Source: Alphaproteobacteria bacterium
GTDB lineage: Bacteria > Pseudomonadota > Alphaproteobacteria > Micropepsales > Micropepsaceae
Assembly: GCA_028865545.1 (NCBI GenBank)
Contig: JAGWJY010000012.1
Location: 1 to 64,000 of the forward strand
Reading direction: 5' to 3'
Length of the DNA: 64,000 nucleotides
Part shown: positions 46,451-48,562 of the stretch, one piece after another
Layout of the letters: each line of letters opens with the position of its first letter
Position numbering within the stretch: the first letter of the stretch is position 1
Translations under genes and position numbers: made by a program
Notes under the pieces: model-generated
Databases searched by the model: none
The model's input: the letters and a program-made list of their open reading frames with translations, nothing else
Told to the model about the DNA's origin: nothing

Positions 46451-47002
46451 TTACCCCCTACGCGCATCTTTTTCTCTCGGTCTCACGAGCAGGCCCAGGA
46501 TAGCCAAAATCGTCAGAGCCAAGCCGACATAGAATCCGATGAATTTCGCCGTCGTCGCCTCGGCCGCCAGCATCACCAGCAGATCACTGGGGCCACGCAG
46601 CACCATCGTCAACTGCAGGCCATTCTCGCAGGCGTCGAACAGCGCTGCAGCGATGGGCGCTGCGGCCAGGATATCCATGGCGCGCCGCATCAAACCGGGC
46701 CTGGGTGCAAAGCGCTCGCGTGCTTCGACAGCGCCGTAATAGAGCGCGGCCGCGTAGAGCGGCATGAACAGGTAATCAGCGCCCAGACCGAAACCGGCCA
46801 AGGCCGCATCAGGCGGGCTTGTCCAGCGATCCAGGATCACGCGGATGCCCCAGCCGGTCTTCACCCCTTGCAGGTCAGCGACGCCGTAGCCGGTTTTCGC
46901 CCGCAGATAGCTGTCGGCGACGTTCAGCACCAGAAACGCCGCCACGGCAGCAGCACCGGTCCAGGCCCAGCGGGCATTGAGCGTTTTCCGGCTTAGTTGC
47001 AT
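46451..47002 (-). CDS. integral membrane protein of unknown function
   Basis: A 183-residue membrane protein with about four hydrophobic segments (AWTGAAAVAAFLVLNVADSY; YLFMPLYAAALYYGAV; a short one at IAAALFDACENGLQL; and FIGFYVGLALTILAILGLLV). A stretch between helices 1 and 2 is soluble (RAKTGYGVADLQGVKTGWG). I do not recognise the family. It runs on the minus strand upstream of rplU and is divergent from the phosphatase gene, with the ATG overlapping the promoter region of that gene. The stop lies 55 bases upstream of the rplU promoter. Confidence 0.68.
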   Translation of the reverse strand: MQLSRKTLNARWAWTGAAAVAAFLVLNVADSYLRAKTGYGVADLQGVKTGWGIRVILDRWTSPPDAALAGFGLGADYLFMPLYAAALYYGAVEARERFAPRPGLMRRAMDILAAAPIAAALFDACENGLQLTMVLRGPSDLLVMLAAEATTAKFIGFYVGLALTILAILGLLVRPREKDARRG

Positions 47003-47035
47003 CTTGTCCCCTCATCCCTTGGACGCGTCCGCTTC

Positions 47036-47641
47036 ATGCGCCCCTTGCTCGACATATTCTACAATTTCCGCTGGGTGCGCGAAGGCGAAGCTGCCCGATC
47101 GTCGCAGGCCCATTTCGGCGGCCTGCAGCGGCTGATGATGCGGCACGGCCTGCGCGCCGTTATCAACCTGCGCGGCGAGAACAGCGATCTATCGTGGTGG
47201 CGCTATGAAAAGCGCGTCTGCGCCGCGCTTGGCGCCGGTCATTTCGACACAATGCTAGATTCACGCAAGCTGCCGACCCGGCCGATGCTCGTGTGTCTGA
47301 TGGATGCTTTCGATGCCGCACCCAAGCCGTTCCTGTTGAAATGCTCCGGCGGGAACGATCGCACTGGGCTGGCGGCGGCGCTCTATCTGATTCATCGCGA
47401 CGGCTGGCAGGCGCGCGAGGGTGCCCAGACGCAATTCGCCGGCATCGCCAAGAAGCACCAACGCTGGCTAAAATTGTTCACCGCCTTCGCGCAGGAGGAG
47501 GCGCGCGGCCGCGCAATCGGCGACTGGCTCCGGACCGACTACACGCCCGAACACTTCGCGGAGTGGTTGAATATGTACGGCCATGGCGACAGTTTCGAGC
47601 GTATCTTCGTGGCGCCGACGCGCAGCCCGTTTCAATGGTGA
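47036..47641 (+). CDS. tyrosine/dual-specificity phosphatase family protein
   Basis: A 201-residue protein with a protein-phosphatase P-loop CSGGNDR at residues 103-109 (C-X5-R), followed by TGLAAALYL, the pattern of atypical dual-specificity phosphatases. The residue before the nucleophilic Cys is Lys (LKCSGG) where His is usual, so activity or specificity may differ. Upstream elements are INLRGENSDLSWWRYEKR (near the general acid region). The start ATG at 47036 is assumed; a TTG at 46997 would overlap the divergent gene. The stop abuts the 3' end of the minus-strand RNA candidate. Confidence 0.75.
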   Translation: MRPLLDIFYNFRWVREGEAARSSQAHFGGLQRLMMRHGLRAVINLRGENSDLSWWRYEKRVCAALGAGHFDTMLDSRKLPTRPMLVCLMDAFDAAPKPFLLKCSGGNDRTGLAAALYLIHRDGWQAREGAQTQFAGIAKKHQRWLKLFTAFAQEEARGRAIGDWLRTDYTPEHFAEWLNMYGHGDSFERIFVAPTRSPFQW

Positions 47642-47676
47642 AAGAAAAACGCCCGGTCGGGGGTGCCGACCGGGCG
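47641..47676 (-). terminator. rho-independent terminator of the small RNA candidate
   Basis: A perfect 11-base stem (CGCCCGGTCGG at 47650-47660 with CCGACCGGGCG at 47666-47676, five-base loop) is followed on the minus strand by TTTTTCTTT. On the plus strand no T run follows, so it works mainly for minus-strand transcripts, although it may also protect the end of the phosphatase mRNA. Confidence 0.85.
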
Positions 47677-47791
47677 TCGCTTGCGCCGTTACGCGCGAAG
47701 TGCCGGGAGGGGATGACCGACACCGCTGACGAAGGGCCCTATCCGGCTTGCGAGCGGGGGGGCAGTGCCTGCCGGAACCAACGCCCTTCGT
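47642..47791 (-). ncRNA. candidate small RNA with terminator (unrecognised)
   Basis: About 150 bases on the minus strand. Predicted transcription begins at an outer stem, ACGAAGGGC (47791-47783), which pairs perfectly with GCCCTTCGT (47737-47729); inside it, CCGGC (47775-47771) pairs with GCCGG (47747-47743), enclosing a C7-containing loop. A second C-rich single-stranded stretch (ATCCCCTCCCGG, around 47702-47713) follows, complementary in type to Shine-Dalgarno sequences. The RNA ends at an 11-base-pair hairpin with TTTTTCTTT. I do not recognise it as tmRNA, RNase P, SRP or 6S RNA. C-rich loops and terminator resemble trans-acting sRNAs; this is inference. Confidence 0.55.
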
Positions 47792-47798
47792 AAGGAAG

Positions 47799-47827
47799 AA
47801 CATATGCAAATTCGCCACAGTTTTCAA
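47799..47827 (-). promoter_or_regulatory. sigma-70 promoter of the small RNA candidate
   Basis: On the minus strand TTGAAA (47827-47822) and TATGTT (47804-47799) are separated by exactly 17 bases. The predicted start falls at about 47791, precisely at the first base of the outer stem. The surrounding 47800-47895 is much richer in A+T than the flanking genes. Confidence 0.5.
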
Positions 47828-47896
47828 CTATTTTTTCGAGATTCGGCTTGCTTAAGATTTTTTTAATGACAGTGCTAAAATTACAACGATTTGAAA

Positions 47897-48562
47897 TCAG
47901 CCTTGGAAAGTCGCGATTTTTTTGTTGATCGCATGCCGCCACGCTTCGGAGAGGCCCGGCGCATCGTGAATTCGACGCAATGCGTCGCTGTTTGGTGCTT
48001 TGGCGAATAGCGCGAGGAAGCTTTCACGCACTGTTGGACTGCGGCGTGTCGTCATGCGCAGCAGCGTTGCCTGACGTGCCGGAACGACGCCGCCGGCGAT
48101 GACGCGCAGATACCAGCCGCAACGCGCCGACAGCGTCATTGCCTGCGGCACATCCGGCCGGCCGGTGTGAATGGCGAGCTTGAAACATGGCGCACGCGGC
48201 TGGCTGACTTCGAGAAGCGCATCGCCCCACTCGAACCGATCGCCGATGCAGACGTCGTTTTCGTCTGCTCCGGCAAGCGTCAAGTTCTCACCGAAGGTAT
48301 TCGGTGCACAAAGGAGTTTCTTTTCCACCTCCCACCATCGCCAATGATCGGACGGATAGGCATAGACGGCCTTGTCTACTCCGCCATGAGCTTCAAGATC
48401 GGCCTGTCCATCACCGGCGATGCCAAGCGTGCGCAGCAAGATGCTGTCCACGGCCACAGCCTGCTTGGCTATTCCCGACAGCACCTCTTCGCCATTCGCC
48501 GTGCCGATGATCGCCGGCACGCCGACGTTGACTGAAAGGATGGAGATGGACTCGGGGCTCAT
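47897..48562 (-). CDS. MOSC domain protein (YiiM-like)
   Basis: A 221-residue stand-alone MOSC-domain protein of the YiiM type. The conserved core is GIAGDGQADLEAHGGVDKAVYAYPSDHWRWWE (residues 46-77), APNTFGENLTLAG and VCIGDRFEWGDALLEVSQPRAPCFKLA with the conserved Cys of the motif. The C-terminal helical part (FLALFAKAPNSDALRRIHDAPGLSEAWRH) matches the YiiM extension. MOSC enzymes handle sulfur from the molybdenum cofactor; reduction of N-hydroxylated bases is known for YiiM. It is monocistronic or at the end of the GST operon (12-base gap). Confidence 0.88.
   Translation of the reverse strand: MSPESISILSVNVGVPAIIGTANGEEVLSGIAKQAVAVDSILLRTLGIAGDGQADLEAHGGVDKAVYAYPSDHWRWWEVEKKLLCAPNTFGENLTLAGADENDVCIGDRFEWGDALLEVSQPRAPCFKLAIHTGRPDVPQAMTLSARCGWYLRVIAGGVVPARQATLLRMTTRRSPTVRESFLALFAKAPNSDALRRIHDAPGLSEAWRHAINKKIATFQG

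Follow-up and report, generated by a model that had tools for sequence, protein, structure and literature searches.

The 64,000-nucleotide stretch of DNA analysed here (the window) carries a gene for a small RNA on its minus strand, with a MOSC-domain protein gene upstream and a convergent tyrosine-phosphatase-like gene downstream (Table 1). The gene has its own promoter and encodes an RNA of 150 nt with four hairpins, ending in a terminator. The TTGAAA and TATGTT elements with their 17-nt spacer, the perfect outer stem of nine bases formed by ACGAAGGGC with GCCCTTCGT, and the inner stem with its C7 loop, all proposed in a sequence-only reading of this DNA, are present by direct reading. The second C-rich stretch of that reading, CCCCTCCC, is present as well, but rather than being plain single strand it makes up the loop and closing arm of hairpin 2; the terminator is strong and is followed by a T run, as described, but its stem has 13 pairs and not 11; and hairpin 3, a short one, was overlooked. 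Nor is the island of 250 bases AT-rich throughout, as only the upstream part (47793-47896) is poor in GC (32%), against 70% in the RNA and 63% in the window. The predicted fold energy of the 150-nt RNA is -79.5 kcal/mol, compared with a mean of -61.85 for 200 dinucleotide shuffles, none of which is as low (z -4.6). A scan of 2.5 kb on both strands found three promoter-like sites where 0.7 were expected and six terminator-like sites where 2.9 were expected; such elements would therefore be weak evidence by themselves, and it is conservation that decides.

Table 1. Features of the small RNA gene and its surroundings (positions are those of the window)
Feature	Position	Strand	Basis or remark
Small RNA, RusT-like, ~150 nt	47643..47792	minus	covariance-model match and fold
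Hairpin 1 (outer and inner stem)	47729..47791	minus	fold; covariation, inner stem also in plain alignment
Outer stem, 9 bp, perfect	ACGAAGGGC 47791-47783 with GCCCTTCGT 47737-47729	minus	direct reading
Inner stem of hairpin 1, TCCGGC/GCCGGA		minus	direct reading
C7 loop inside nearly invariant GCACUGCCCCCCCGCUCGC	47756..47762	minus	proposed second pairing site; genus alignment
Hairpin 2 with C-rich loop	47699..47724	minus	fold, covariation
C-rich stretch CCCCTCCC	47712-47705	minus	loop and closing arm of hairpin 2
13-mer AUCCCCUCCCGGC	47702..47714	minus	overlaps the RusT seed as reported (PMC11005374)
Hairpin 3, GCGC-GUAACG-GCGC	47683..47696	minus	fold, covariation
Intrinsic terminator hairpin	47648..47678	minus	followed by T run 47649-47643; motif scan
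-35 element TTGAAA	47822..47827	minus	TTG kept across genus
-10 element TATGTT, within conserved TGCATAnnnT	47799..47804	minus	genus alignment
Upstream element CTGTCA, candidate regulator site	47867..47872	minus	32 of 43 distinct genus-type-loop sequences
MOSC-domain protein gene, upstream neighbour	47897..48562	minus	PF03473
Tyrosine-phosphatase-like gene, downstream, convergent	46997..47641	plus	PF13350; PF22784 just below cut-off

When the window genome and 60 relatives were searched at the DNA level, 26 of 36 relatives from the same genus had matches at E <= 1.1e-9, and 24 genomes from other families had none better than 4e-5. On alignment of 29 loci, the loop GCACTGCCCCCCCGCTCGC is nearly invariant, the GCGC hairpin, terminator and promoter are conserved, and the outer stem varies. 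All 28 full-length genus sequences have ATCCCCTCC unchanged (the 5' truncated L016 was left out of alignment A1 and L028 was dropped from one analysis), and the same hairpins could be recognised by eye in all 28 genus sequences folded one by one. For counts of promoter and upstream elements, genus-type denotes 43 distinct sequences with a CTGCCCCCC...GCTCGC loop, the 53 others including at least one genus member (L024); the promoter core TTG..TGT..C.....TGCATA occurs in 40 of these 43, and in all 43 by a looser pattern. RNAalifold, run on a plain MAFFT alignment, reported compensatory changes for 18 of the 33 pairs that it predicts and missed the outer stem, which is misaligned there. In an alignment of 53 diverse sequences that was fitted to the covariance model itself, 94.7% of cells are paired, compared with 32-44% in slid controls and 72% in shuffles (0/500 shuffles as high), and both-sided changes are seen in 40 of 44 pairs. 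Five of six helices covary among the relatives, which is the check that had been recommended for the stems; helix 3, which consists of two pairs (columns 32-34 with 68-69), has no both-sided change in the 53-sequence alignment. Judged by its conservation, the stretch is a genuine small RNA gene.

A covariance model built from 12 genus sequences (R1) detects the gene at E <= 0.01 as a single copy in 67 of 69 genus genomes, or in 55 of 57 without the 12 training sequences, and has no match in the genus genomes G077 (62% complete) and G001 (93% complete). The initial interpretation as a trans-acting sRNA fits this picture, in that the stems covary, the gene is single-copy in 67/69 genus genomes, and the neighbours vary while the RNA and its promoter persist. 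Over an even draw of 385 genomes of the class, R1 matched 41 at E <= 0.1, and beyond the genus it matched 26 of 380 class genomes, in 12 families, at E <= 1e-3. A pattern scan of GTDB contigs returned 97 stretches; of the 80 listed, the records that carry a genus name belong to Rhizomicrobium electricum, a Rhizomicrobium MAG, Marinicaulis flavus, other Marinicaulis and Parvularcula. Since L147, the copy in R. electricum, is identical in sequence to the copy L057 of genus genome G061, this species belongs to the window's genus. One pattern match (L158, DAHUZD010000406.1) comes from a MAG titled Acidobacteriaceae, outside the class, and this contig is probably misbinned or misnamed. Searches against Rfam 15, which had also been advised, found no family at gathering threshold either in the window or in nine homolog loci. 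The RNA is thus unrecognised, as had been claimed, as far as Rfam is concerned, but not overall, as a characterised relative, RusT, has been reported (PMC11005374).

RusT (CCNA_R0199) of Caulobacter crescentus is described as a 118-nt RNA encoded between lolA and xth, with four stem-loops deduced from probing, of which stem-loop 3 is bound by Hfq and stem-loop 2 contains the seed region (nt 45-57) (PMC11005374). It is reported to be induced by iron starvation (iron chelator) or zinc, with NtrX as a repressor, and to repress TonB-dependent receptors and OmpW; homologs at the lolA/xth locus are described in Caulobacteraceae (PMC11005374). For comparison, we picked likely Caulobacteraceae genomes by the identity of their MreB to PDB 4cze (94-96% in three genomes of family f63; up to 100%) and, from five genera, chose 18 loci by LolA similarity. 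The 13-mer AUCCCCUCCCGGC (ATCCCCTCCCGGC) is found in the RNA downstream of lolA in all 18 of these loci, and an xth start motif follows the RNA in 14 of them; the exact 13-mer is absent from two other Caulobacteraceae copies, L217 and L218. Model R2, whose training set has no f63 (MreB-marked Caulobacteraceae) genome and whose E-values on loci of that training set are by construction, places its best match directly downstream of lolA in 18/18 loci, with E-values of 1.5e-6 to 0.0014 over 75 kb. On L217 and L218, which R2 itself had found earlier, it gives 0.00075 and 0.002. In a 118-nt frame on one Caulobacter-like copy, nt 45-57 fall on the C-rich loop and overlap the 13-mer. Based on position, length and seed position, the lolA-downstream loci of Caulobacteraceae are likely rusT. 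Three loci of family f37 (L192-L194) have an RNA of 117-119 nt with a similar architecture upstream of xth. We rejected f37 as the family of Caulobacter, given that MreB points to f63 and that the gene preceding the RNA in L194 is peptidase C26-like and not lolA.

The neighbourhood of the RNA was compared over 154 of 185 loci that could be matched by a regular expression (31 remained unmatched, and many flanks extend over only 1.5 kb); since loci overlap, several genomes appear twice and flanks are short, these counts are not genome counts. In 87 of the 154 loci an ORF for an AlkB-like 2OG-Fe(II) oxygenase (PF13532, one member tested) or a phosphatase-like protein is among the three downstream ORFs, and it is this arrangement, not taxonomy, that defines genus-type in the neighbourhood count. 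LolA lies within three upstream ORFs in 10 of these 87, including R. electricum L147, and the lolA/xth position is therefore a marker and not a functional requirement. The other 67 loci have LolA upstream in 42, xth downstream in 34 and either in 50. By eye, 12 of 18 loci of other families have a LolA-like ORF immediately upstream, and of 20 weak-match loci 13 have lolA or xth within about 2.5 kb and seven have neither. No lolA or xth was seen by eye at five further weak matches (L219-L223), including R2's whole-genome match in the Caulobacteraceae genome G420, whose lolA-downstream RNA was recovered only by direct search of that site. The lolA/xth site looks like the ancestral location. In many genus loci (for example, L102, L007 and L014) the AlkB-like ORF is convergent with the RNA, and in the window the phosphatase-like gene stands in its place.

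The window RNA resembles RusT in having hairpin 1, a hairpin 2 with a C-rich loop and a terminator in the same order, and its homologs in many families hold the lolA/xth position. It differs in being 150 nt long as against 118 nt, in a longer hairpin 1 with an extra inner stem and a nearly invariant C7 loop, and in its location between MOSC and phosphatase-like genes instead of lolA and xth. In 17 of the 18 Caulobacteraceae copies the 70 nt preceding the 13-mer contain no stretch of five C, and in the remaining one (L242) the stretch is part of a stem arm. Hairpin 3 of the window RNA is a GCGC hairpin, whereas only two of five Caulobacteraceae copies folded have a separate third hairpin and the hairpin 3 pairs assigned to these copies by the model are partly non-standard. 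On the balance of these comparisons, we consider it probable that the window RNA is homologous to RusT of Caulobacter, in a longer variant and at a different locus. We found no published description of a wider RusT family outside Caulobacteraceae in a literature search, and the distribution described above suggests that RNA of this kind is present in many more alphaproteobacteria than has been described. The covariance model supplied here covers an RNA for which Rfam has none.

By its probable homology with RusT, the action of the window RNA is most likely anti-Shine-Dalgarno pairing on outer-membrane receptor mRNAs. The RNA would be transcribed from the TTGAAA/TATGTT promoter and bound by Hfq, and through the C-rich loop in its hairpin 2 (AUCCCCUCCC) it would pair with G-rich Shine-Dalgarno regions of these mRNAs and keep them from being translated, probably in response to iron or envelope stress. 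A second pairing site may be provided by the C7 loop of hairpin 1, which is not seen in Caulobacteraceae copies.

Receptor genes were taken as Plug-domain (PF07715) matches, 35 of which are present in the window genome (G000; L247-L276, L386-L390). For the target statistics, a simple score served to choose gene starts, and the controls come from crude ORF calling; two loci drop out of the receptor counts, L248 at a contig end and L383 because nothing was picked, and a first-ATG variant dropped 2/35 and 13/69. In G000 the 7-mer GGGAGGG, complementary to CCCUCCC, is found 3-25 nt before the start of 7 of 34 receptors and 1 of 262 control ORFs (p 1.1e-6), and no other 7-mer is more enriched before the receptor genes; with starts chosen without Shine-Dalgarno information, it precedes 5 of 33 receptors and 0 of 250 controls. 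AGGAGG was noted before 1/34 receptor genes of G000 and 10/262 controls. In a second species, G084, the exact GGGAGGG shows no enrichment (2/68 vs 3/215); the strings enriched before receptors there are AGGGGAG (10/68 vs 2/215) and GGGG (37/68 vs 40/215). Duplex energies are lower for receptors than for controls, and permuted C-rich seeds scored as low as the real ones in 23/100 cases for loop 2 and 21/100 for loop 1, and in 34 and 65 of 200 in another run. As permuted seeds do nearly as well, the target signal reflects how rich in G these sites are and does not prove a seed match. Complements of the form GGGAGGGGRT occur four times in the genome, one of them inside the RNA gene itself and none before an ORF of more than 60 aa. 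The unusually G-rich ribosome-binding sites of the receptors would thus be consistent with, and are not proof of, regulation by the window RNA.

An RNA with two or three C-rich loops could instead serve mainly as a sponge for G-rich RNAs or as a titrator of a C-rich-binding protein, and the Caulobacter RNA sponge CrfA is reported to pair with C-rich sibling RNAs (PMC12559287). We regard such a role as unlikely, since RusT is reported to repress receptor and ompW reporters by pairing, with compensatory mutations that worked in two of three reporters tested (PMC11005374).

That RusT and the window RNA are homologs has to be weighed against convergence on a conserved C-rich sRNA, as several other RNAs of alphaproteobacteria also contain C-rich motifs (PMC12559287, PMC5869019). 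SisA-D/alphaR8 (MmgR) share an anti-Shine-Dalgarno C-rich motif and a class-wide spread (PMC12559287), and a C-rich loop in the 5' part of GsrN is reported to pair with G tracts (PMC5869019). However, alphaR8 (SisA/MmgR) has its own single-stranded 10-mer, UUUCCUCCCU, in place of the AUCCCCUCCC of the window RNA, and in most species its neighbour is FGase, as opposed to MOSC and phosphatase-like genes. Sigma-T/EcfG activates GsrN, whose homologs are usually near the general stress locus with ecfG-nepR-phyR, unlike the window gene with its TTGAAA/TATGTT promoter and its immediate MOSC and phosphatase-like neighbours; the core conserved in 40/43 genus-type sequences does not correspond to the sigma-EcfG consensus. 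GsrN, alphaR8 and ChvR were rejected on promoter, motif and reported conservation. Two Rfam families, anti-hemB (RF02837) and Rhizobiales-2 (RF01723), share with the window RNA a strong terminator and a stretch of CCUCCC or CCUCCCC, and align with it below threshold. Anti-hemB, the best sub-threshold match, was rejected, as it scores 21.5 bits against a gathering threshold of 49.5, a score driven by the terminator and CCUCCC, and Rhizobiales-2 scores 21.4 against 40. Rhizobiales-2 was found in 0/289 class genomes, a search that is uninformative as its controls were silent too.

Likeness to RusT by convergence alone would agree with a window gene away from lolA/xth, with a hairpin 3 that differs from that of the Caulobacteraceae copies, and with doubtful weak matches, such as a second match of E 0.001 upstream of lolA in L232 and the 7/20 weak loci lacking lolA and xth. 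It leaves unexplained the lolA/xth position across many families, the order of hairpins, the 13-mer common to 18/18 LolA-chosen copies downstream of lolA, and the 10/87 genus-type loci, R. electricum L147 included, that retain lolA, and we accordingly give it little credence. Homology with RusT remains the preferred explanation, and, more speculatively, RusT could be the form to which an envelope regulator of long standing in the alphaproteobacteria was shortened in Caulobacter. The ancestor would have had two independent C-rich loops, that of hairpin 1 (GUUGCCCCCCCGCU or GCACUGCCCCCCCGCUCGC) and that of hairpin 2 (AUCCCCUCCC), serving two target sets or gripping one mRNA at two sites, and receptors would keep G-rich sites so as to stay controlled. 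We advance this scenario tentatively and consider it rather less likely than not. Few elements in the genus are as conserved as the C7 loop of hairpin 1, and work on Caulobacter could not have revealed this second, highly conserved loop. A class-wide family would link iron or envelope stress to receptor display in relatives of Rhizomicrobium and in Parvularculaceae, which is a testable proposition.

The RNA is on the same strand as the MOSC gene and its -35 element is about 70 nt past the MOSC stop codon, but a processed 3' untranslated region of that gene in place of a separate gene is very improbable, as the promoter core is kept in 40/43 sequences while the upstream gene changes (MOSC, lolA and, by eye, aminotransferase and peptidase C26). 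Further upstream, the genus-type sequences, with CTGTCA in 32 of 43, differ from the Caulobacteraceae copies (L225-L242, L217 and L218), 9 of 20 of which carry a palindrome, TTGTnAC-N2-5-TCACA, upstream of the promoter. This palindrome also occurs in 16 of the 53 others (mean of 0.0 in shuffles) and in 0/43 of the genus-type sequences. It is possibly the site of a conserved regulator, and if it is taken as a putative NtrX site, its absence from 43/43 genus-type sequences means that NtrX control may not carry over to the genus. In the window and its close relatives L002 and L003, a CtrA-like motif, TTAA-N7-TTAA, could be seen by eye upstream of the promoter (minus strand, 47852-47866).
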